A stretch of 20,877 nucleotides of DNA from a virus. Both the position numbers and the translations under genes were made by a program. Location: IMG/VR virus record IMGVR_UViG_3300032284_001188, positions 1 to 20,877 of that record; one strand, given 5' to 3'. Position 1 is the first letter of the stretch. Every line of letters begins with the position of its first letter. Under the pieces are notes generated by a model. That model was not told the origin of the DNA. It worked only from the letters and a program-made list of their open reading frames with translations, and ran no database searches. Of this stretch, positions 1 through 20,800 are shown piece after piece.

Positions 1-80
1 GTTTGTGCTGAACCACTAACTACTCCCGTTGGTAAATTAAGTATTGTTTGTGCTGAACCACTAACTACTCCCGTTGGTAA
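1..80 (-). repeat. 35-bp exact direct repeat with 45-bp period in the fibre gene
   Basis: Positions 1..35 and 46..80 are identical. Each encodes part of a LPTGVVSGSAQT module of 15 residues. Diverged relatives of the same module continue to about position 235. The array begins or continues beyond the left edge. Confidence 0.9.
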
Positions 81-1736
81 TTGTGCTGAACCACTCCATA
101 CTCCACTACCACCCAATACTTGTGATGAACCGGAAACTGTACCCGTTGGTAAGTTTGCTATGGTTTGTGCTGAACCCGATACAATCCCCGAAGGTAGTTG
201 TGCTGAACCACTCCATATACCTCTACCTTTTGTTTCATAAGACGATGTGGCCGTATTTAGTGCATTTACTGAAATATTTAAAGATGCAGTTGTAGTATTT
301 AAATTTGAAATAGATGTTACTAAACTTGCAGTTGATTGTGAAGCAGTAAATGTATTTAATGAACTTACTGATGTATTCAAACTTGCAGTTGTTGTATTCA
401 AATTTGTTATTGAAGTAACCAAACTTGCAGTTGAAACCGAAGCAGTAAAACTATTTAAATTACTAATAGAAGTTACAATTGATGCCGTAGTTACACTTGC
501 AGTAAATGTGTTTAAATTTGCTATTGAGGTAACTAAACTTGCAGTTGAAACCGAAGCAGTAAATGTATTCAAATTTGTTATTGAAGTAACCAAACTTGCA
601 GTTGAAACACTTGCAGTAAATGTATTTAAATTTGTTATTGAAGTAACCAAACTTGCAGTTGAAACACTTGCAGTAAATGTGTTCAACTTTGAAATAGATG
701 TTACAATAGATGCCGTAGTTACACTTGCAGTAAAAGTATTTAAATTTGTTATTGAAGTAACCAAACTTGCAGTTGAAACCGAAGCAGTAAATGTGTTTAA
801 ATTTGAAATAGATGTTACCAAACTTGCAGTTGAAACCGAAGCAGTAAATGTGTTTAAATTTGAAATAGATGTTACCAAACTTGCAGTTGAAACCGAAGCA
901 GTAAATGTGTTTAAATTTGAAATAGATGTAACTAAACTTGCAGTAGAAATACTTGCAGTATAACTATTAAATGATGATGTAGTTACTAAATTTGCAGATG
1001 AAGATATAATTCCTTTACCTGTTGTTTCATAACTTCCACTAACAAATCCGAAAGATGTAATTTGAGCAGAACCACTAATAGTTCCTGCTGGTATGGCTGC
1101 TGACGAACTTATAAATCCAAATGCAGTTATTTGTGCAGATGAACTTAATAAATTTGAAGGCAATGGTTGAACACTACCACTCAATGTATATCTTGTATCG
1201 TATGATGATGTTAATTGAGATGAAGAACTTATTGCTCCACTTAATGATGTCAAATATGAACCACTAACAAAACCTAATGATGTAATTTGTGCCGAAGAAC
1301 TAATTGTTCCCGCAGGTATTATTGTTGATGAACTTATAAATCCTAATGATGTAATTTGTGTTGACGAACTTACAATTCCACCTGGCTTTGATGCTATATT
1401 ATCCCAAGTTGTTTGAGTAATACTTCCACTTAATACATATCTTTGGTCAAATGAACTTGTTAATTGTGAAGAACCACTTATAGTTCCACTTGCAACCGAT
1501 GCCGTAAATGATGCGGTATAAGAATTGAAAGATGATGTAGATAATTTACCATCTAATGAACTACTTAATGCGTTGGTTACTAAATCGGTTGCAAATGTAG
1601 TATCTAATGAAGATGTTAATTGGTTTATAGAAATTTTATATGTTGTACTACCTGAAATACCAAGTACATATGTTGTATCTAATGATGCAGGACTTAATGC
1701 AGGTAGTTCCGATATTCTTTTACTTTTATTTGCCAT
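1..1736 (-). CDS. Repetitive Ser/Thr-rich tail fibre or adhesin, 3'-truncated by window edge
   Basis: The reading frame opens with ATG at 1736, one base after the stop of the upstream gene, and stays open for 578 codons to the left edge, so the C-terminus is missing. The first ~35 residues (KRISELPALSP..., TTYKISINQL) resemble the N-terminal attachment segment of many phage fibres. Residues ~75-255 are loose modules rich in SSAQITSLGF and SGSYLTSL motifs. Residues ~258-480 are eleven copies of a 19-residue unit (consensus TFTASVSTASLVTSISNLN). The last part contains WSGSAQLPTG/VVSGSAQT modules of about 15 residues. Composition is dominated by Ser, Thr, Ala, Val and Leu, with no Cys. Hydrophobic residues in the 19-mer are mostly spaced 3-4, which fits a trimeric shaft. 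A host-binding fibre or stalk is inferred from composition, repeats and its place after tail-completion genes. The receptor-binding tip would lie beyond the window. Confidence 0.72.
   Translation of the reverse strand, partial: MANKSKRISELPALSPASLDTTYVLGISGSTTYKISINQLTSSLDTTFATDLVTNALSSSLDGKLSTSSFNSYTASFTASVASGTISGSSQLTSSFDQRYVLSGSITQTTWDNIASKPGGIVSSSTQITSLGFISSSTIIPAGTISSSAQITSLGFVSGSYLTSLSGAISSSSQLTSSYDTRYTLSGSVQPLPSNLLSSSAQITAFGFISSSAAIPAGTISGSAQITSFGFVSGSYETTGKGIISSSANLVTTSSFNSYTASISTASLVTSISNLNTFTASVSTASLVTSISNLNTFTASVSTASLVTSISNLNTFTASVSTASLVTSITNLNTFTASVTTASIVTSISKLNTFTASVSTASLVTSITNLNTFTASVSTASLVTSITNLNTFTASVSTASLVTSIANLNTFTASVTTASIVTSISNLNSFTASVSTASLVTSITNLNTTTASLNTSVSSLNTFTASQSTASLVTSISNLNTTTASLNISVNALNTATSSYETKGRGIWSGSAQLPSGIVSGSAQTIANLPTGTVSGSSQVLGGSGVWSGSAQLPTGVVSGSAQTILNLPTGVVSGSAQ
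297..965 (-). repeat. Tandem array of eleven 57-bp units inside the fibre gene
   Basis: Units of exactly 57 bp (19 codons) begin at 965, 908, 851, 794, 737, 680, 623, 566, 509 and 452. After a 42-bp spacer unit (395..354) a further copy occupies 353..297. The units at 908 and 851 are identical over all 57 bp, and those at 680 and 623 differ at one base. Others differ mainly at synonymous positions, for example TCT ATT TCA against TCA ATA ACA, or GCT TCG against GCA AGT. Two units (737 and 509) share a variant encoding VTTASIVTSI. The array encodes the fibre shaft. Confidence 0.95.
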
Positions 1737-5503: not shown

Positions 5504-7114
5504 TTAAAGTGTTTCCATACCATCAACGACAATCTTACCGTAAAATTCTGGTCTTACGATTTTCTTAGCGTATCTAGTCATAACACCTCTTCTTGGAGTG
5601 AAGTTAGATGGGTCATAAACTAATGGAGTCATAATCAATGGTACATATGGTGCGTAAACTGCTCCTGTTTCGAAGAAGTTAGAACCTTTGAAACCTAATA
5701 AGATTACATTCTCTGTCATATATGGGTTTTTGTAAACATCATATCTGTTAGAGATTTGACCAATGTTAGTTACACCTGCTGCGAAAGTTAAAGAATCTTT
5801 ACCTGGGTTAGCAGAGAAACCATTCATTGATTCCAAAATAGTTGCAACATTTGGAGATACTACTACGAAGTTAGCACCACCTCTCATTGTTAACTGATGG
5901 ATTTTGTTAGATACCTTTTGTAATTTGATACCTAAAGTTTGAAACCAAGTGTTCTTTTGATATGCTGATGCAGCTGCTGCATTAGAATCAATTGAGAATC
6001 CACCACCATTCCACTCATATCCAACCTTTGCAGACCAGTATTCTTGTGTGAATGCGTTTTGTTGTAACATTTCTAAGATTTCTAAGTCGATTTCTAAAGA
6101 GATGTACTCAGACAACATTTGAGTTAACTCAGCCTCAGCATCAATGCTATGGTAAGCGTTCAAATCTTGTGCTAATTCCGGTGTCCAAATTGCTTTTAAC
6201 TTACGAGTTTTAGCAACAATTGGTTCTGATTTCAATTCTAATTCGATTTCAGGAATTGCTAAGTTGTTACCTCTATCTTCAAAATCACCTCTTGAAGTAG
6301 ATGTAGGTTGTACGTGGTATGCTAAAGATACTCCGTTTGCACCTGCAGAACCAGTACCAGTTACAGTTGAAACATATTCAATGTTGTTACCATTTTTAGT
6401 AGTGTACTGAGGGAACATTGTATAAGAACCAGATAATAAAGATGCTTCAAAAGCTCTTATACCATTAAAATCAGCGTCAGCTGGTAATGCTACTACAACT
6501 TTTTTCAAAGTATTAGCTGCATAAGATGCCGATAAAGTAGCGTTTGTTAAATCATAATCAAAATCAGCAATAGATGCTGAAGAAACTGTTGCAGTTGATA
6601 CAGCTGTAGCGTTATTGATTGTGTATCCAAATCTACCTGCACCATACAAACCACCTTCAGTTACTTGAGTTGAACCTAATTTGTTACCTGCTGGAGATAA
6701 AGAATCTTTACCAAAAGTACCACCATTACCGAATAAAGATGAACCTGTAAAATCTGGGTTACCTGCTGGGTTAGAACCATATTTGAAGTCCATATAGAAA
6801 ATAAGACCTGAAGGTAAGTTCATTGGTTGAACTGAAACGAATTCTTTAGCTGCGATAGAACCGAAGATTCTTCTTACTAAAGGTAACGCTACACCTGCCC
6901 ATTCTTCAGAACCTGCAGATACACCTGTACGAGTTGCCTCATCTAATAATTGTTTAGCTTGGTTTTCTAACATTACTGCCATACCGTGCTTAGTTGTTTC
7001 AGAACCTACTCCTTCAAGTAATCCTGTTTTTTCCCATTTGCCTTTCAAACCTCTTGTTTGCTCTAGCATAACGCTCTGTGGGTTAGCGCCTGTCATTAAT
7101 TTTTTAATGTCCAT
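5504..7114 (-). CDS. Major capsid protein, T4 gp23-like
   Basis: A 536-residue protein, close to T4 gp23 (521). It forms the hexameric capsid lattice. The N-terminus has MLEQTRGLKGKWEKTGLLEG and GMAVMLENQAKQLL, followed by WAGVALPLVRRIFG and LPSGLIFYMDFKYG, which are hallmark positions of gp23 relatives. The C-terminus ends RYAKKIVRPEFYGKIVVDG, also typical. A glycine/serine-rich stretch at ~120-260 probably corresponds to the inserted surface domain. The prohead protease of this family cuts after (I/L)xE, and LLE at 32-34 is a possible propeptide site; T4 cuts near residue 65. The start at 7114 lies 21 nt after the scaffold stop, preceded by an A-rich leader without Shine-Dalgarno. A strong terminator follows. 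Confidence 0.93.
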   Translation of the reverse strand: MDIKKLMTGANPQSVMLEQTRGLKGKWEKTGLLEGVGSETTKHGMAVMLENQAKQLLDEATRTGVSAGSEEWAGVALPLVRRIFGSIAAKEFVSVQPMNLPSGLIFYMDFKYGSNPAGNPDFTGSSLFGNGGTFGKDSLSPAGNKLGSTQVTEGGLYGAGRFGYTINNATAVSTATVSSASIADFDYDLTNATLSASYAANTLKKVVVALPADADFNGIRAFEASLLSGSYTMFPQYTTKNGNNIEYVSTVTGTGSAGANGVSLAYHVQPTSTSRGDFEDRGNNLAIPEIELELKSEPIVAKTRKLKAIWTPELAQDLNAYHSIDAEAELTQMLSEYISLEIDLEILEMLQQNAFTQEYWSAKVGYEWNGGGFSIDSNAAAASAYQKNTWFQTLGIKLQKVSNKIHQLTMRGGANFVVVSPNVATILESMNGFSANPGKDSLTFAAGVTNIGQISNRYDVYKNPYMTENVILLGFKGSNFFETGAVYAPYVPLIMTPLVYDPSNFTPRRGVMTRYAKKIVRPEFYGKIVVDGMETL

Positions 7115-7135: not shown

Positions 7136-8440
7136 TTATTTTAAAATACCTGCTAATTTTTTAAATCTGTCAGAAAAATCTGTATTCTCAGCAATTACTT
7201 GCTTAGCTTGTGCAGGTTTAGTAGACTTAGTCACTTTACTTGCGATTCCTTCTGTCATTGATTTTTTAGCCGTTTTAGTAATTGAAGTGTATTTGAAATT
7301 CTCTGCTAATGTAGAGTATACCAATTTAACTTCTCTTACTGAGTTTGTTCTATCTAAAGTTTCAATCACTTTCACTTTTTGTTCGTTAGTCATGTTGTGA
7401 GCTCTAAATAATTTATTAGCGAATAATAATTTTGCGTTTAACAAGTTTACTTCGTTAATTGTTGTTTGTAAAGATTTGATTACTTTGTAAGCTTCGTTTA
7501 ACTCTGCTTCTTTTTCATCTTCTTTTTTGTCTTCTTTGTCGTCAGTCATGTCTGCTTCCATTTCTCTTAAAATTTCTTCTAAGTCAATTACTTCATCCAT
7601 GCTGTCTTTGTCAAAAGAACCTCTTGGTGCTTTACCAGATGCTTTTGTTACATCTTGACCTTCTTTGTTCATTACAACTTTAGGGTCTTCGGATTTGTCA
7701 GTACCTGCATCAGAACCATCAGAATAAGATTCGTTTTTAGACTCTTCTTCTTCCTCTTCTTCTGATTCGTACATTGTACCTTCTTCCTCTTCTTCCTTTT
7801 CTTCAGAACCTGGCTCATTTAATTGAGCTTCTAATTCTCTGATGATAGCTTCTAAGTCCATATCATCTTCATTGTGTTCATCTGGTTCATCGTGGTGGTC
7901 ATAATTTGGTTCGGTTGGAGTTTCAGCACCAAATTCATCTTTTGATGGTTGCATGCTTCCTTCTTCTTCCTCTTCTTCCTCTTCTTCAGGATGGTATCCA
8001 AATTCCGCTAATTTTGCAGTCAATTCCGCAATCTTATGGTCTTTTTCATCACCCATTCCGAATTGGTCTTCCATACCTTCTTCTTCGTTGATATCAGCTA
8101 CTTTTTTGTAGTCTGTACCAGCTTGTTCAGGTTTACCACCATCTTTCTTTACACCTACTGATAAATCAGTATCTGCTTTGTAATTTGGTTGTGCACCTGG
8201 AGTTTTAGGATATCCTGCGTCTGTTTTAGACCCGATACCTGTTGAAATTAAATCCTCGTTCTTCATGTCTGCATCATCTTTTTCAGTTTCTTCAGCCTCT
8301 GCTTGCATTTTTTGTGCTAAGATAGATTGAAGTCTTGGAGTAAATGCTTCTTCAAGAGCAAGTTTTGCATTCGCTAACGCAGTTTCTTTAACAGCTTTAG
8401 CATCCGCAATCGCTTCTTTCAATAATTTTGAATTTGCCAT
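7136..8440 (-). CDS. Prohead core scaffolding protein, T4 gp22-like
   Basis: A 434-residue, very acidic protein that would form the internal core on which the capsid assembles and which the prohead protease then degrades. The N-terminal ~50 residues are helical (SKLLKEAIADAKAVKETALA). Two glutamate runs occur at ~152-160 and 213-233. An internal duplication pairs DLEAIIRELEAQL (196-208) with DLEEILREMEADM (286-298). The C-terminal part carries EVNLLNAKLLFANKLF and KVKVIETLDRTNSVREVKLV, the signature I associate with T4-like scaffolds. Many (L/I)xE sites are present, including LKE at 7-9. It sits directly before the capsid gene, as gp22 precedes gp23 in T4. Unlike nearly all neighbours it has a well-spaced AAGGA upstream. 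Confidence 0.85.
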   Translation of the reverse strand: MANSKLLKEAIADAKAVKETALANAKLALEEAFTPRLQSILAQKMQAEAEETEKDDADMKNEDLISTGIGSKTDAGYPKTPGAQPNYKADTDLSVGVKKDGGKPEQAGTDYKKVADINEEEGMEDQFGMGDEKDHKIAELTAKLAEFGYHPEEEEEEEEEGSMQPSKDEFGAETPTEPNYDHHDEPDEHNEDDMDLEAIIRELEAQLNEPGSEEKEEEEEGTMYESEEEEEEESKNESYSDGSDAGTDKSEDPKVVMNKEGQDVTKASGKAPRGSFDKDSMDEVIDLEEILREMEADMTDDKEDKKEDEKEAELNEAYKVIKSLQTTINEVNLLNAKLLFANKLFRAHNMTNEQKVKVIETLDRTNSVREVKLVYSTLAENFKYTSITKTAKKSMTEGIASKVTKSTKPAQAKQVIAENTDFSDRFKKLAGILK

Positions 8441-8625
8441 TTGTTTTTCCTTAAATTTTGTTGTGAAGTTATTCTTGTAGGGAACTCCAATGTAATTATG
8501 TTGATTGTTCGGTCACACCTTATAAAGAAGGGTATTCATTAATCAACTATGTCTTGTAATCTTATAATAAAAAATAAGATATTTGATAATAAGTATGTAA
8601 AATTTTTAGAAAACTAAAGAAAATA
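8441..8625 (-). other. 185-nt leader of the scaffold-capsid operon
   Basis: This is the longest stretch without a gene. On the coding strand it contains a 7-bp inverted repeat ATCTTAT/ATAAGAT with an 8-nt loop (8559..8580), and a wider pair GTTGATT/AATCAAC (8541..8547 with 8500..8506) enclosing a less AT-rich core. No T-run follows either hairpin, so neither looks like a terminator. The stretch most likely holds a promoter and 5' untranslated region for scaffold and capsid. I see no tRNA or further ORF. Confidence 0.45.
8448..8452 (-). promoter_or_regulatory. Shine-Dalgarno-like AAGGA of the scaffold gene
   Basis: AAGGA ends 7 nt before the ATG at 8440, canonical spacing. Apart from a poorly spaced AAGGAG before the gene at 2310, an AGGA formed by a stop codon before 4195, and an AAAAGG abutting the bS21 start, other starts in the window have only A/T-rich leaders. 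Confidence 0.5.
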
Positions 8626-8802
8626 TTAAAATAATTTGTTTTTTCTTATTGTTTCTTCTTTTTGTAATCTTTTTCTAACCGAAGGTTTTGTAAAGTTTTT
8701 TCTTTCTCTAAGTTCTTCAATTTGTTTAGTGGCTTGTACTTTTTTTTTGTAATCTTTTAATGCCCACTCTATGTTACCCGCTTTGACGCTTACTATTAAC
8801 AT
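8626..8802 (-). CDS. rpsU: Phage-encoded ribosomal protein bS21
   Basis: A 58-codon gene starting at ATG 8802 and ending TAA at 8626. It begins MLIVSVKAGNIEWALKDYKK and continues with LRERKNFTKPSVRKRLQKEE. This matches the bS21 plan: short N-terminal strand, a helix with ALxxYKKK, the LRERxxFxKPS turn, and a basic second helix. The MLIV opening and KPSV block look like Bacteroidota bS21 rather than the proteobacterial form. bS21 binds the 30S platform next to the 3' end of 16S rRNA and affects initiation. The C-terminal tail is short. It starts 4 nt after the DUF5856-like gene stop, with AAAAGG directly touching the ATG, too close to act as a normal Shine-Dalgarno. Phage bS21 genes are known in other phages; the host target here is inferred. 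Confidence 0.9.
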   Translation of the reverse strand: MLIVSVKAGNIEWALKDYKKKVQATKQIEELRERKNFTKPSVRKRLQKEETIRKNKLF

Positions 8803-8806
8803 CCTT

Positions 8807-9178
8807 TTATTGTAAATTAACTAATTTATATTTTGTAGAATATAATAATTTTGCTACATTATCTATCTCATTTTGAATCCAACTATCTTTTAATTTTGAA
8901 TCTTGTCTCATTTTTTCTAATGCTATACATAATTTTTCAAAATATGAAATAATATTTTTAATATCACAATTTGTATCCAATCCATTTACTGGTTGAAATT
9001 TAATTAAACCATATTTTCCTTGATAAGATTCTACCAAACCATCTATTAATTCAATAATTTCATCATAGTATTTATTTAATGCTTTATGAGCTGCGAATGC
9101 TCCAGGTCCTTTAACTCCTAAATGAAACACATGTGCTTGTGTTCTACTATGAAAAAATAATGATGCTAATTGCTCCAT
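8807..9178 (-). CDS. DUF5856-like protein with Dps/ferritin-like helix pattern
   Basis: A 123-residue alpha-helical protein. The first 50 residues (LASLFFHSRTQAHVFHLG, AAHKALNKYYDEIIELIDGL) match what I recall of the phage family DUF5856. They also resemble the first two helices of Dps-type proteins, with His at 10, 16, 19 and 31 and acidic residues at 39, 40 and 46. SYQGKYGLIKF follows. Whether the His/Asp/Glu set binds iron or is only a fold relic cannot be judged here. It lies between a small helical gene and bS21 in the head cluster, with an A-rich leader and no Shine-Dalgarno. A ferroxidase or DNA-binding role would be inference. Confidence 0.6.
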   Translation of the reverse strand: MEQLASLFFHSRTQAHVFHLGVKGPGAFAAHKALNKYYDEIIELIDGLVESYQGKYGLIKFQPVNGLDTNCDIKNIISYFEKLCIALEKMRQDSKLKDSWIQNEIDNVAKLLYSTKYKLVNLQ

Positions 9179-9187
9179 TTTTTTATT

Positions 9188-9601
9188 TTAATTTTGTTTT
9201 AATCCTAATCTTTGTTTCATAACATCTTCAGAAACATTTGCTATTTCAAAGTATCTTCCTAATACATGTCCCATATCTTCATATAATGCTTCCATTCTCT
9301 GTTGTTGAGCCTGTGCTTCTACTGCTTCTTTTTCAAAACCAGCTTGTAACTTTTTAAGTTCACCCATATTTCTTTTAATAGTCACTCTATCAAACCAATC
9401 ACCACCTTCTCTTAAAGTATATTCTTGTGCTGCGTCTGCAATTGCTCCTAATGTTTCTGCAATTTGGCGAATGTCAGACTTTCTACTCATACCTTCTCTA
9501 TGTTGACCATATGTGGATATAATTTCTAAAAAGTGTTTTTTTATATTCGATGGAAGTTGTTGTACATCTTCCTCATTCAATAAATCTTTTAACTTTATCA
9601 T
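9188..9601 (-). CDS. Small helical head-region protein, possible internal or core protein
   Basis: A 137-residue mostly helical protein without a known function. It opens MIKLKDLLNE, in which LNE (8-10) fits the (L/I)xE recognition pattern of T4-type prohead proteases. A charged helical stretch (KRNMGELKKLQAGFEKEAVE, then AQAQQQRMEALYEDMG) follows at ~75-112, compatible with a coiled coil. The neighbouring upstream gene is the prohead protease, 4 nt away. T4 keeps small core proteins (gp67, gp68) near its protease gene, so a core or internal-protein role is plausible. No sequence similarity to those is visible to me. Confidence 0.55.
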   Translation of the reverse strand: MIKLKDLLNEEDVQQLPSNIKKHFLEIISTYGQHREGMSRKSDIRQIAETLGAIADAAQEYTLREGGDWFDRVTIKRNMGELKKLQAGFEKEAVEAQAQQQRMEALYEDMGHVLGRYFEIANVSEDVMKQRLGLKQN

Positions 9602-9605
9602 ATTC

Positions 9606-10196
9606 TTAATTTAATTCTATTATAATTTCTCTCATTAAATCTTGTGACTTACACCATTTACCACATTCCTCTGCCATTTTTGCCCATTGTTTTGATTCTT
9701 GTAAAGGTGCCATAAATGCTCCATGTGTAGAAGGATTGGAAACAAAATCCCATCCAACTAATTCAAAATCATCTGCTACCATTACAGTACCATCTGATAA
9801 TTCTTTTACCGAACCCAATCCTCTAGATGAAATACCTAAACGAATATTATTCTTTAATAATTCTTTTAAGATATTTCCTGATGGTGTTGAAAGAATTTCT
9901 ACTACACCACACACATCATCACCATCCCAATAGATTTCTCTAATATTGTGTGATACATTTTTTAAATTGATAACAGGAGAATCTGGATGGTCTAATTCAC
10001 CCAATGCTCTTCTTTCTTTAATGAGTTGTTCGTATTTTTTACATTCTCTCATTAAAATTTCTTTTGGATATCTTCTATTATTTTGATTAGGTGCACCTGC
10101 TCTTTGCAAAATACCTTTAACTAAATAAGTTCCATTTTCTTCTTGTTGAAGTTTTGCTTCAAACAAATGGGTTTCTATCAATAATCCTTTATTCAT
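9606..10196 (-). CDS. Prohead core protease, T4 gp21-like
   Basis: A 196-residue serine protease of the herpesvirus-assemblin-like prohead protease superfamily. It digests the scaffold and trims capsid proteins before DNA packaging. Visible landmarks are APNQNNRRYPKEIL (34-47), GELDHPDSP with the candidate catalytic His70, NIRLGISSRGLGSV with candidate Ser123 or Ser124, and DFELVGWDFVSNPS (143-156) with acidic residues that could complete the active site. T4 gp21 is of similar size. N-terminal LIE (6-8) and LFE (11-13) could be self-cleavage sites. The start ATG at 10196 overlaps the stop of the EF-hand gene as TAATG. Together with scaffold and capsid genes downstream, the order follows T4 21-22-23. 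Confidence 0.88.
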   Translation of the reverse strand: MNKGLLIETHLFEAKLQQEENGTYLVKGILQRAGAPNQNNRRYPKEILMRECKKYEQLIKERRALGELDHPDSPVINLKNVSHNIREIYWDGDDVCGVVEILSTPSGNILKELLKNNIRLGISSRGLGSVKELSDGTVMVADDFELVGWDFVSNPSTHGAFMAPLQESKQWAKMAEECGKWCKSQDLMREIIIELN

Positions 10197-12419: not shown

Positions 12420-14162
12420 TTACTTTTTTGTTAAATCTTCTGTTAAAATAGTTTTTTTGTTTCCATTCATATCTTTAAATATTTCTTCATAGTTATTTCT
12501 TGGCTTATATTTTACAGAACCTTCTTTTTGTTTTAATGTTTTAATTCCCAATGGGTCGCGACCTTCAGGGTGGTCATCTTTACCATATCGGCTTGGGTCT
12601 TTTGGTCTACCTATTTGTCCACCTTCTTCTAATTCCGTATTAATTCTATTTATTTCTTCTTCTACATTTGTTGTTTCTTCGGTTCCTGTTGGTTTTGCTG
12701 GGTCAATACCTTGTGTTTCAATTGAAGTCAATCTAAAGTTTTGCTTAGTATCTTCTAATACTCCCAATGTTAACTCATCTTGCTCATCTTTTGCCATACC
12801 CATCACTGCCTCATACATCCATTCTTTAGAGAATAGTTTAGTTTGTTGCATTTGTGTAATCAATGTAACTTTAGATGAATACAATTCAACTTTTTCTTGT
12901 TCGTATATTTTAGATGGAATTGTTAACTCTAATGAGAAGTCTGTTAATCTATCATCGGTAATACCTTGTGCATATAAATGTACTATTGCAATTTTAGTCA
13001 ATTCTGAAATCAATACTCTTTGTACTCTTTCAATTGTTTTTGCAAATCTAACATCCATTGCTGCTAATGTTGCTTTACCATTTAAATCTTCGGAATATCC
13101 TAAAAATGCTTTTGGAATCTTTAATGATGCCATCAACTTATTTTTTAAATAATTGATATCATCAATCATATTATATTCCATACCTTTAATTGTATCGATA
13201 GATGTTCCATTATCGTTACCTCTAACTGGCATATAATAATCCTCAATTAAATTCATTACATTATATTTCAAATTGTAATCACCTGTTTTTTCATCAACAA
13301 ATGGAACTTTTTTAGAACTATTAATAATTTTTTGCATATAGTTATCAACCTCATTTGGTGGAATATTACCTACATCAATTTTAAATACTCTTTTTTCAGG
13401 AGCTCTCATAATACGATGAATCAACATTGCATCTTCCATTAAAGATAATTGTTTCCAAATTCTTCTACCACCTTCTACCATAGATTTTCCATAAGGTAAA
13501 AAGTTTGAATCTGAATTTAATCTAAAATGAGCCATCTCATAGTTTTCAAATTCTTTTTTTGCAGTTTGACCATATGAACCCAATGGATTCATGTATGGTG
13601 AATATATAAACTTTACTCTTTGAGGATTTAATGGGTCAAAGTTTTCCACTCTACTAATTTCATAAGGAGAGTATGGTGCAACATTTATAATACCTAATTG
13701 GTCTGCTATTTCTAAATGTAAATAAAAATCACCATATTTAACTAAATTTCTTGTCCATGGCCATAAGTTAAATTCTAAGTTTAAAATATCGTAAAATAAG
13801 TTTTCTAATACTTGCTTTATTTCATGGTCTGGATGATGAATTTTTAATACTTGTCCAAATTCATTTCTTGCAGTAGTCTCATCTGCATAGATATCTAATG
13901 CTGATGATAATATCGGGTCCATATCCATAGAATCGTAATCTCTAAATAAATCAATACGAACTTGTTGATATGCTAACGATGAATCAATTTGACCTGTTGC
14001 ATAATTTGTAACCTTTAATTTCATAAATCGGTCAACTAAATTTGTTGTCATATTTTGATACTCATCTGTATCTATGACTTTAGTTCCCTTTCCTGTTCTA
14101 CGAACAATAGTATTTGTTGAAAATAATTTCTGTAATCTACTAAATATTGTTTTGTCTGCCAT
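12420..14162 (-). CDS. Portal protein, T4 gp20-like
   Basis: A 580-residue protein (T4 gp20 is 524) that would form the dodecameric ring at one vertex, the channel for DNA and the seat of TerL. Characteristic stretches are MDMDPILSSALDIYADETT near 80, WTRNLVKYGDFYLHLEI near 136, YSPYEISRVEN, YGKSMVEGGRRIWKQLSLME, then HRIMRAPEKRVFKIDVGNIP near 252, and MASLKIPKAFLGYSEDLNG near 350 with ATLAAMDVRFAKTIERVQR after it. The order and spacing match gp20-type portals. The last ~90 residues are hydrophilic and Glu/Lys-rich with DPSRYGKDDHPEG, an extra tail compared with T4. It has an A/T-rich leader without Shine-Dalgarno and is followed by head-assembly genes, as in T4. Confidence 0.92.
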   Translation of the reverse strand: MADKTIFSRLQKLFSTNTIVRRTGKGTKVIDTDEYQNMTTNLVDRFMKLKVTNYATGQIDSSLAYQQVRIDLFRDYDSMDMDPILSSALDIYADETTARNEFGQVLKIHHPDHEIKQVLENLFYDILNLEFNLWPWTRNLVKYGDFYLHLEIADQLGIINVAPYSPYEISRVENFDPLNPQRVKFIYSPYMNPLGSYGQTAKKEFENYEMAHFRLNSDSNFLPYGKSMVEGGRRIWKQLSLMEDAMLIHRIMRAPEKRVFKIDVGNIPPNEVDNYMQKIINSSKKVPFVDEKTGDYNLKYNVMNLIEDYYMPVRGNDNGTSIDTIKGMEYNMIDDINYLKNKLMASLKIPKAFLGYSEDLNGKATLAAMDVRFAKTIERVQRVLISELTKIAIVHLYAQGITDDRLTDFSLELTIPSKIYEQEKVELYSSKVTLITQMQQTKLFSKEWMYEAVMGMAKDEQDELTLGVLEDTKQNFRLTSIETQGIDPAKPTGTEETTNVEEEINRINTELEEGGQIGRPKDPSRYGKDDHPEGRDPLGIKTLKQKEGSVKYKPRNNYEEIFKDMNGNKKTILTEDLTKK

Positions 14163-14864: not shown

Positions 14865-16472
14865 TTATCCTAATAACCAAGTTAAATTTTCCTTTTCACC
14901 TCTACCCATATCCATTTCATATGGATTTGATTTTAAATGACCGGTTGATACAAATCCAGTATATTGACTTATTTGCGTTGAATTCAACATTGTCTTTGTC
15001 AAATCTATTCCTTCCTGTTTCAAACGAAGTGCTGTATTACGAACCCAGAGTCCAATTGCTAATGCCATTGTTAGGTCATCATTATAACCCTTCATTGCTT
15101 CTGCTCTACCATTATACCAAATAAATGTAAATAGTTCATCTATAAGTCTCTGAGAACGAATGAGGATGTCTTTACTATTTATGTATGTGTCTAATGTTGA
15201 AATAATAAGTGGTCTTGTCTTTGTTGTTGTTCCAAATCCTGCTACTAATTTCTTTTCGTCTCTATAAAACTTATTAGATACTTGTTTTTCAACATCTATA
15301 TATTTTAAGTCATTACTCATATAAAATAAATTACCATATGCTCTATCAATTACTTGTTGAATAGTTGCCCATCCTACATTTGAATTTTCTATAATTAATA
15401 GTGCGTTATTCCATTCCGTTGCAACTGCTACTAAAAAGTTTCCAAAATCTTTTGTTTCAATTTTGCCTCTATATTCTGCAACTTGCGAACTATCCTCAAT
15501 ATCAATTACTTGGAATGTTGAAAAGTCACTTCCATCACCTCTAGCGACATCGGCAACCACTATATATACTCTATTATAATTTGGATGTTCCCATTTCCAA
15601 TAGTTACCATCAAATCCACCTTTTTCAACCGGGTCCATTACATATGTGTCCTTATACCATGTTAATAATGCTGGGTCAATTACCGTATCACCTGAACCAA
15701 CAAAGTCACAATCACATTCCTGCGATGCTCCTTTGACTCCTAGTATACGAGTTTGTTCATCTCTCCATGCCTGATTTCTTTCTGGATGTTTTGTCCAATG
15801 TAAGTTTATATTATTAAATCCATTTGAACCACTTTCACCATCAACCCACATTTTATGAAACCAATTACCCACACCATTTGGAGTAGATAATACAATTGCA
15901 GCACCACCTGTTGATAAAGTTGATTGTGCTGATAACCAAATTTCATCAATATCTCTGATAAATGCTGCTTCATCCACAACTAATAAAGATAGGGCTTCCG
16001 AACGACCTGCGTCTGGAGAACTTGCGATTGCTTTTACTTGTGAACCATTTTTTAATTTAAGTGAAAGTTTGTTATCTTCTACTGAACTATTACCACCATC
16101 TCTTAACCAAATTGGTAGTAAGTCATGCATTACTCTAACCTTTTCAACTAAGTTTTTTGCTACTGTTACTTTTGTTGCGATTACTAACGCATTGAAGTCT
16201 TGGTTGAATAACATCTTCCAAAGAATAAATCCTGCAGATAAAGTCGATAATCCTAATTGACGAGATTTAAGAATAATGTTTAATCTATTTTGTTTAAAGT
16301 CAGTTAAACAATCTTCCTGGAATGGGAAAAGGTGAAAGGGTATTTTACCTCTCACCGGGTGTTGAATAACACAATATTTTTTCATAAAGTAAATGGGGTC
16401 TAATGCACATTTACGATATTCTTCATGTATTATTTCTTTTAATGTTTTCTTAGGTTGCCCTTGAACTCCCAT
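14865..16472 (-). CDS. Terminase large subunit, T4 gp17-like
   Basis: A 535-residue DNA-packaging motor: an ATPase that pumps DNA through the portal plus a nuclease that cuts the concatemer. The ATPase domain has a Walker A variant SRQLGLST (70-77), Walker B LLVVDEA (163-169, with Asp167/Glu168) and the coupling motif STPNG (196-200). The RNase H-like nuclease domain shows ADVARGDGSDFS (Asp308), LIIENSNVGWAT (Glu362) and YNDDLTMALA (Asp465/466), the expected three-acid set. T4 gp17 has 610 residues, and here the N-terminal extension before Walker A is shorter. The start ATG at 16472 overlaps the upstream stop as TAATG. Confidence 0.95.
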   Translation of the reverse strand: MGVQGQPKKTLKEIIHEEYRKCALDPIYFMKKYCVIQHPVRGKIPFHLFPFQEDCLTDFKQNRLNIILKSRQLGLSTLSAGFILWKMLFNQDFNALVIATKVTVAKNLVEKVRVMHDLLPIWLRDGGNSSVEDNKLSLKLKNGSQVKAIASSPDAGRSEALSLLVVDEAAFIRDIDEIWLSAQSTLSTGGAAIVLSTPNGVGNWFHKMWVDGESGSNGFNNINLHWTKHPERNQAWRDEQTRILGVKGASQECDCDFVGSGDTVIDPALLTWYKDTYVMDPVEKGGFDGNYWKWEHPNYNRVYIVVADVARGDGSDFSTFQVIDIEDSSQVAEYRGKIETKDFGNFLVAVATEWNNALLIIENSNVGWATIQQVIDRAYGNLFYMSNDLKYIDVEKQVSNKFYRDEKKLVAGFGTTTKTRPLIISTLDTYINSKDILIRSQRLIDELFTFIWYNGRAEAMKGYNDDLTMALAIGLWVRNTALRLKQEGIDLTKTMLNSTQISQYTGFVSTGHLKSNPYEMDMGRGEKENLTWLLG

Positions 16473-17846: not shown

Positions 17847-20800
17847 TTACTTTCTTAAAGCTTGTTTTACCAATGATACTGCTAATTTTTTAACTCTTGT
17901 TTTATCATCATATTTTAATGCGGATTTAACTAAAATTAAATTTCCTGTTTCTGGATTTTTAATTTTTGTTTGTAATACTTTTTGGACATTTTTATTATTT
18001 TTAATATCCGATTTTTTAACTCCTTTATCTTTTGGTTTTGGTGTTAATTTTTGTTTTACAGGTATAATTTTTGTTTCTTTTGCTTTTTTAGCTACTTCTG
18101 CTTTTTTGGTTACTGCAACTATTTTAGCAAAAACATCTTTATCAAATTTAGGATATACTTGTTGAAATATTTTTTTCTTTTCAGGTATACTCAACATATT
18201 ACTACCAAATGTTGCTCTTAATTGAGTTCCACTAATATTTTTACCATCAACATTTAATTGCATTTCTGGTGCAACAATAAAATATCCTTCATCATTGTAT
18301 CCTTTCTTTTTATCATCAGGAACTTTGTTATAATTTTTAAAATATTTTCCACCCTTTTCTAATCTTTCTGCATCTTTTTGAGATACTGCCGTTACATATT
18401 TTGTATCATCTGGAACTTTTGATAAAATTTCTATCGGTTTGTATGGGTCTTTTACCTGAACTACATTTTTAGGAGGAATTCCAAACATTCTAGTCATAAT
18501 TTCCTTCTTATCTTTAAATGTGAATGGAGATTTGATTGGGTCTTGTACATTTGATGATGCTACATAAACATTATCTTTACCAAACTTCTCAACTAATGAT
18601 TTGTAAATACTATAATGTCCGGCATGAAATGGTTGAAAACGACCACTAAATATTGCAATGGTTTTTCCTTTACTTTCTTCTTTTGGTTGTTCGTTTCCTG
18701 CTACGGCTGCGGCTTCTTTCTTTTTAGGTTTGTCAAATTTAAAAGTTCCCTGTATTTGATTTATTGGTGCAAATAGGCCTGTGAATTTGTAAGGTTTTCC
18801 GTTGTACTGAAATACCACACCTTCCGATGGGACAATTTTATCCATTCCAATAGTTTCTAATCTTTCTAATTCAACTTGTAGTTTTGCAATTTTATCAACA
18901 TCTTTACTATCTTTGATTCCTTTTATAGATTGTAAAGTTTCTTTTGTTAAAGCATTTGCTGCTCCTGGATTATTAGATGATAAGAAATTGGTTACTCTTT
19001 TTAACGATTGAGCACCTGCATTTAAAAATACATGCTCAATTGGTTTAATCATTTGTTTTTGTGCTTTTGCTAATTGGTTTGTTTCAAAATCTCTAAACCA
19101 ATTTCTTTGTACATCTTCTTCAAAATTTTTTACTCCAAATGATTTATCACCATCTGCAAATCTATTAACCAATCCTTTTTTTTGTGATGGAGAAAATTTA
19201 ATACCTAATTTATTTTCTTGGTTATTTATTTCATTCTCCCACCATGCTCTACGATAATCTCCTAATTTAGCTTTATCAGATAAACCAAATTTACCAGCAG
19301 TTGCAGTTAGTGTTGAATTAAATTCTTTTGCTTTTTGTGCATACTCTTTTGCGTCTGCATCACTAAATGCTATTGTCTTGGGCCCTTCAATACCAAATGT
19401 TTTTTGTCTATCTGCTCCGACTTTTTTAACTGCTTCTGCAAATTCTTTACCATCTTCAGTTGAACGCTCTATTTGTTCTCCGTTTTTATCATATGTAATT
19501 GTTCCATGCATTACCAATACAGTTTTTCCGTAAGGTATTACATTTTGTGTTTCTGGCAATATAATTTCTAAACTCATAAATTTAGAACCATTACCAAACA
19601 TTTTTTTAATTTGTTGTGGTGATAGTTTTTTAACTGCTGCTTGCAAATCTTCGGATGCTCCTACAAATGCTTTTTCAATTCCACCTCTACCTTTAAACTG
19701 ATTGTATATTCCTTTTGTATCTAATGCATTTTTACCACTATCTCTAACATGTCCTTTATTTCTACCAAATACCACTTTACCATCTCTCACACTAAATGCA
19801 ATATTTTGTCCATCTAATTTTTCACTAACAGGTGCTTCTTTATCCAATCCTCCAATAAGGCCTCTGTTAATCATTTCTTTCATATCGTTAAAAGTCAAAT
19901 CTTCATCTTCAAATGGGTGTGCTAAGTGTCCTGCTGCTCCACCTTCTAATAGTAACCCTTCTGTGTATATTTGTTTATTTATCTTACCATAGTTTCTCAT
20001 TAAGATACCTGCAACTGCGTTTGCTTGATTTTCTATTGAAGAACCCGTTTTACCATTTTCTGCTGGATTGGTAAGTAAATTTAATTCGTCTTGTTTTCTA
20101 TGTACCAATTCGTGTGCAATGGTTCTTAAAATATCTGCCGAAAGTCTATTGTTTGTTACAACTACGATTTCTTTTGTTTCAGGATTATAGCCACCTAATG
20201 ATGCGTGTTTGTTTGCATAATCCGTATCGTTTATTAAATGGATTTTTGGTTGTTTTTTTAATTTTAATTTTGAAACTGCGTAATTTATAAAATCATTTAT
20301 ATTTTTAACTTTTAAATCCGATACTTCTTTTTCTTCTCTTAAATTTCTTAAAACTTTAGTTCTATTTTCATAATAATGTAAATCTTTAGCTATATTATTT
20401 TTTGCAATTTCAACTGCCAATCTTGCATCATTTGTTACTCCAATTTCTTGTTGTGCACCAAATGCTATTTTATTTTTTAATTCTTCGACAGATACATTAT
20501 TTACATTTGCCAACGATTCTATACTATGATTTCCGGATTGAATTCCATACATTTGAAATACTCCGGGAGCTCCTTCGTGAAATTCCTGATATGGTGCTTC
20601 TGGTGTGTATGTTTTATCCATAAATAAATGTGGAGAAACTTCCCACTTTTCTATTGCATGTTGTTTGTATTCTTCACCTTTAATATCATGTACCCATATT
20701 TTAGCGGGCCCGTTTTCGTAATTATGATTGTTTACAGGTACTGCTATTTTTGTTGCTGAATCAGGATAACTATCACTTAAATGTCCTTGTACATTCCAAC

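Follow-up and report, generated by a model that had tools for sequence, protein, structure and literature searches.

A phage bS21 with arginine at position 54 and a covarying scaffold leader in the head module of an uncultured virus

Why would a phage keep a gene for the small-subunit ribosomal protein bS21 among the genes that build its head, and does that position say anything about what the protein does? We asked this of a genome fragment of 20.9 kb from an uncultured virus (20,877 nt, IMGVR_UViG_3300032284_001188; the whole analyzed stretch is called the window below). The initial annotation had described a bS21 gene of the Bacteroidota form among head-assembly genes, directly upstream of the scaffold and capsid genes, and had suggested that the protein changes which mRNAs are initiated, with a link to structural protein synthesis in a setting that would be new. 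The head-module genes of the window all lie on the minus strand:

14865–16472, minus strand: terminase large subunit (TerL; PF03237, PHROG 2)
12420–14162, minus strand: portal protein (Gp20; PF07230 Portal_T4, above cut-off)
9606–10196, minus strand: prohead protease (Peptidase_S77; PF03420, above cut-off)
9188–9601, minus strand: 137-aa head-module gene, unknown, between the protease and DUF5856
8807–9178, minus strand: DUF5856 / PHROG 858 gene, ending 4 nt ahead of the bS21 start
8626–8802, minus strand: phage bS21, 58 aa (Pfam and NCBIfam matches above cut-offs)
8441–8625, minus strand: putative structured RNA leader, 185 nt, between bS21 and the scaffold gene (covariation; no Rfam match)
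7136–8440, minus strand: scaffold-like acidic protein (by position and composition; no family match)
5504–7114, minus strand: major capsid protein (MCP) Gp23 (PF07068, E 1e-77)

The bS21 gene coincides exactly with an ORF at 8626–8802, and the profile check that the initial annotation had asked for came out in its favor. Both Pfam PF01165 Ribosomal_S21 (49.3 bits, cut-off 27; E 3.9e-13) and the NCBIfam equivalog TIGR00030 (41.7 bits, cut-off 28.95; E 7.8e-11) matched above cut-off over nearly the whole 58-aa protein. PHROG 21469 ("ribosomal protein S21") matched with E 1.1e-5. The closest solved chains in a PDB search were the bS21 proteins of 9i5v and 7jil, the latter being the Flavobacterium johnsoniae ribosome (PMC9723584). 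An AlphaFold model, whose input rows were taken from the collected loci, reached moderate confidence (pLDDT 77, pTM 0.41); its predicted helices (11–25, 27–33, and 40–57) would agree with the bS21 fold, and its PDB fold matches, although weak (best E 0.2), look like small-subunit S21 chains in 16/16 cases. Close relatives of the protein were found in 80 further IMG/VR contigs. Among 59 distinct family sequences, pS was 0.35 and pN 0.054 (pN/pS 0.15), and the median dN/dS of about 0.11 pointed to purifying selection, which argues that this bS21 is a functional protein. Because the same slot and strand recur in 80 more contigs under a pN/pS this low, the ORF is not a chance one. By its nearest cellular relatives it is of the Bacteroidota type, as had been claimed.

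The head module is T4-like (Gp23 MCP, Gp20 portal, S77 prohead protease), and the placement of bS21 among head genes is borne out by the S77 protease, Gp23 MCP, and Portal_T4 in its neighborhood. The slot reads protease / DUF5856 / bS21 / scaffold, is co-directional, and is the same in 81/81 contigs, with a DUF5856 gene upstream of bS21 in most of them. Since bS21 begins 4 nt past the DUF5856 stop, it closes the gene block that lies upstream. The proposed order relative to the scaffold and capsid genes thus holds, but "directly upstream" does not, as the 185-nt leader lies in between. The DUF5856 / PHROG 858 family is annotated as "starvation-inducible transcriptional regulator" and gave a weak ferritin-like match; the window protein is 84% identical to that of the sister phage L264, though the L264 capsid protein is only 67% identical. 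Upstream of the terminase, 17847–20621 (minus strand) encodes a protein of 924 aa or longer with a cytidylyltransferase-like PF01467 region and a weak M78-peptidase-like stretch. At the other end, 3–1736 (minus strand) encodes a Ser/Thr-rich repetitive protein with TASVSTASLVTSISNLNTF repeats, probably a tail or fiber protein, and a long frame overlaps it on the opposite strand.

No close DNA match to the window was present in the phage collection. The nearest MCPs from isolates were those of Microcystis phage Mel-JY01 (PP395634; 54% identity) and Flavobacterium phage vB_FspM_immuto (MW353176; 53%); that of the uncultured 484-kb phage LR756508 is 55% identical. From these relatives and from start regions devoid of Shine-Dalgarno (SD) sequences, the host is probably a Bacteroidota bacterium; the similarity to cellular bS21 may point the same way but is suggestive only, the query patterns being Bacteroidota-biased.

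The setting as such is not new. Chen et al. (2022) described 47 Bacteroidetes myovirus genomes with bS21 near TerL, portal, protease, and MCP, reported late expression together with structural genes, treated the anti-SD context, and proposed that host bS21 is replaced so that phage transcripts are favored late in infection; of 900 published phages, they counted 388 in which bS21 has head genes nearby (PMC9723584). An earlier list already had 1310 viral genomes and contigs that encode bS21 (Mizuno et al. 2019, PMC6375957). What differs here is a co-directional bS21 in another slot, with Arg at position 54, unlike the published clades. Clades a–e of Chen et al. share with the window a small Bacteroidota-like bS21 and a T4-like head module in which TerL, portal, protease, and MCP lie in the bS21 region. 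However, their bS21 runs without exception on the opposite strand, whereas the window and the 80 further contigs are co-directional, and they carry Tyr or another aromatic at position 54 in 61/61 cases (PMC9723584), where the window has Arg. In contigs with the Chen layout (the L233–L307 group), bS21 sits between protease and portal instead of between DUF5856 and scaffold. A third bS21 arrangement is that of the huge phage records L226 (LR756504), L230, and L231 (268–636 kb), in which bS21 is of a host-like Tyr54 type and no homolog of a head-module gene was detected nearby. A human-feces "Bacteriophage sp." GenBank record (L227, MT837542) with a Tyr54-type bS21 and a glutamyl-tRNA-synthetase-like ORF nearby looks like a fragment of a bacterial chromosome.

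In Bacteroidia-type bS21, Tyr54 stacks on A1534 of the 16S rRNA. Arg53 of the window protein aligns with F. johnsoniae Tyr54, and this position is Arg in 81/81 window-family contigs but Tyr in 80/80 cellular Bacteroidia copies. Tyr was also found in the best 20 matches of a 395-genome phylum search and in most other viral bS21s. The window protein shares its fold family and N-terminal motif with F. johnsoniae bS21 (7jil), yet its C-terminus, strongly conserved in sequence across the family, is about six residues shorter than that of host bS21. In the wider set of phages with related MCPs, position 54 was R in 80, Y in 8, H in 4, K in 1, and M in 1; a further 67 loci had no detected bS21, an absence count that is based on ATG-start ORFs only and may be too high, and 32 were truncated. 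A strict tie between residue 54 and strand or slot, apparent in the first 160 loci, was given up upon finding the same-slot Tyr (8) and His (4) copies. The bS21 tree, built on 64 columns and weakly resolved, separates same-slot phage bS21s from Chen-type phage and host bS21s by a supported branch (95/90), which argues against a recent capture from a host by the window lineage. Mel-JY01 has an annotated, co-directional RpsU between protease and scaffold, but this bS21 is far diverged, with K at position 54, and the listed host is a cyanobacterium.

We consider it fairly probable that the gene supplies a working bS21 that exchanges into the host 30S subunit while phage is being produced and shifts the choice of mRNAs to the phage's advantage. 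By analogy with the other published bS21 phages, it would be expressed late. Entry into host 30S subunits would have a parallel in the bS21 of Pelagibacter phage HTVC008M, which enters E. coli 70S ribosomes (Mizuno et al. 2019, PMC6375957); that protein is about 41% identical to ours and, in contrast, is of alphaproteobacterial origin in the published tree. Once there, a bS21 without the Tyr54 stack on A1534 may leave the 16S 3′ tail more loosely bound than it is in host ribosomes, by analogy with F. johnsoniae, in which ribosomes with Y54A or C-terminally truncated (ΔC) bS21 favor strong-SD mRNA (McNutt et al. 2023, PMC9976891). Two precedents tell against this explanation: ΔC ribosomes are also poorer at initiating on SD-less mRNA (PMC9976891), and the pelagiphage protein cut E. 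coli translation to about 5% (PMC6375957). In addition, the 16S tail may be held in another way, by Arg53 and what is left of the basic tail.

If a freed anti-SD served phage genes, SDs would be expected on them. We scored SD-like pairing as E ≤ −5 kcal/mol and strong SDs as E ≤ −9, in comparison with shuffled start regions. Pairing was found in 0/17 distinct start regions of MCP, 0/21 of portal, and 0/29 of the phage bS21 family. Of 79 host rpsU loci, 62% carry a strong SD (a feature of many, not all, Bacteroidia), and F. johnsoniae rpsU is autoregulated by bS21 (McNutt et al. 2023, PMC9976891); because the phage gene lacks such an SD, it should escape host autoregulation. Among genes that truly start in an intergenic region, the scaffold gene stands apart, with a conserved weak SD (AAGGA) upstream and SD-like pairing in 19/19 distinct start regions. 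Overall, 17% of 164 gene clusters of the window family paired, against 6% in shuffles; the corresponding figures were 10% versus 6% for Chen-type phages, 4% versus 6% for immuto, and 52% versus 14% for Mel-JY01, which differs from the window in having such pairing in about half of its genes. A simple SD-led switch for the capsid is therefore not supported, given an MCP and a bS21 that themselves lack SDs and an overall enrichment that is small, although it may apply to weak-SD genes. With MCP and most late genes SD-less, it is not evident that a freed anti-SD would benefit capsid synthesis. For this reason we favor an altered, unspecified handling of the 16S tail, and the same observation keeps alive a plainer reading.

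In that reading, which is that of Chen et al. and which we hold to be possible though not probable, phage bS21 equals host bS21 in function: the tail is hidden by other contacts, and the gene secures replete, SD-blind ribosomes for SD-less late phage mRNAs. Such ribosomes would suit these mRNAs, MCP included. Eleven other residues of bS21, bS18, or bS6 also touch the 16S tail, and F. johnsoniae Y54A grows normally (PMC9976891). Arg may be neutral drift at a tolerant position, since same-slot relatives keep Tyr. Functional equivalence fits less well with the fixation of Arg in all 81 contigs, Tyr never having reappeared in the genus (four near relatives have His), and with the strong conservation of the C-terminal sequence.

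The position next to the scaffold–capsid genes might be taken as a sign of a functional link, but this evidence is weak; what lies directly ahead of those genes is the leader. The leader is nearly invariant within the window genus and contains the following candidate helices:

8559–8580, minus strand: helix H1 (ATCTTA / TAAGAT); compensatory changes in three columns of alignment A3
8541–8547, minus strand: helix H2, 5′ arm GTTGATT, pairing with 8500–8506; 6/7 pairs with compensatory change
8500–8506, minus strand: helix H2, 3′ arm AATCAAC; same pairs as the 5′ arm
8514–8534, minus strand: helix H3 (TACCCTT / AAGG-T-GTG); 5/7 pairs with compensatory change
8464–8489, minus strand: helix H4 (TGGAGTT / AACTTCA), some 24 nt before the scaffold ATG; 100% paired, three pairs with compensatory change

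Single-sequence folding was not significant (z −1.0), so the structure rests on covariation. Alignment A6 (29 sequences from diverse relatives) supports 21 pairs in three helices that are 96.2% paired, against 34%–50% in slid controls with partners moved by one to three columns; 14 pairs had changed on both sides, and the observed covariation was reached by 0/500 shuffles. A second, independent alignment of 35 immuto-like and related leaders, most from phages without bS21, gave two hairpins with 96.3% pairing, versus 21%–44% when slid; of their 14 pairs, 13 had changed on both sides. Model R1, built in part from the window sequence, matches the window at 8441–8603; among loci outside its training set, it gave five weaker matches (Mel-JY01 and four immuto-type), each closely ahead of the start of a scaffold gene. 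Model R2 was trained on the second group of leaders alone. Across 531 kb it matched 19 times, in every case on the plus strand and directly before a scaffold start; these matches include window-genus, sister-genus, Mel-JY01, and LR756508 loci and are individually weak (E 0.03–0.7). The window itself was not among these 19, nor was any Chen-type or host locus. We discarded the idea that Chen-type phages share the leader, with no R2 match at E ≤ 1 in nine loci; between protease and scaffold, Chen-type phages (L234, L247, L266, L276, and L298) have a strong terminator and an AT-rich ATATTTAT element rather than the leader hairpins. In the window and in seven relatives, no Rfam 15 model matched the leader, and we found no description of it in the open-access literature. 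The scaffold leader seems to be a previously undescribed cis-acting element common to many Bacteroidota T4-like phages related to immuto.

Relatives without bS21 have the leader too, which led us to reject it as a bS21-dependent element; on this sequence evidence it belongs to the scaffold–capsid unit, not to bS21, and it is probably a cis-acting element for expression or stability. Immuto, for instance, has the same head-gene order and an R2-type scaffold leader, but no bS21 was found in it, and a terminator-like hairpin precedes its leader. Such hairpins lie ahead of the scaffold gene in 24 of 52 bS21-less relatives; none was seen between bS21 and scaffold in the window genus (0/95), so transcription could read through from one to the other. 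A candidate late promoter between the two genes (ATANNTAT) occurs in 95/95 leaders and was set aside as too AT-rich to count.

That bS21-less relatives keep the scaffold–MCP unit and its structured leader weakens the proposed link to structural protein synthesis, and it lends some appeal to a reading in which a hot slot between protease and scaffold leader harbors several optional small genes, among them bS21, which would be kept for a general growth benefit unrelated to structural proteins. The 67 loci with no detected bS21 in the slot would fit this, as would the immuto slot, which holds a 75-aa gene of other sequence. We nevertheless find it rather doubtful, given the frequency of head genes near phage bS21 and its co-expression with structural genes (Chen et al. 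2022), and given that bS21 lies in the head module in each of two architectures, whose slots and strands are not the same. Many ribosomal proteins bind the leaders of neighboring genes, and bS21 adjoins the leader in all complete family contigs, both being conserved, but it is extremely improbable that phage bS21 acts off the ribosome by binding and regulating the scaffold leader that directly follows the bS21 gene, as the leader is equally conserved and covaries in phages without bS21 and Chen-type bS21 phages gave no match with R2.

Our preferred reading remains a phage bS21 that would enter host 30S subunits and alter mRNA selection. We think it quite unlikely that the full scheme holds, in which the Arg54, short-tailed bS21 would create a phage-specific 30S subunit that does not sequester its 16S 3′ tail as Bacteroidia ribosomes do, start-site choice would shift during infection (including toward weak-SD sites such as the scaffold AAGGA), and a new leader RNA would control the scaffold–capsid unit. 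The published rule that the bS21 of Bacteroidota phages always carries an aromatic that blocks the anti-SD fails for a common lineage. Its Arg54 bS21 would be similar in effect to the F. johnsoniae Y54A and ΔC mutants, which are known to shift mRNA choice, and the scaffold leader RNA may offer a handle on how the most highly expressed genes of Bacteroidota T4-like phages are controlled without SDs.
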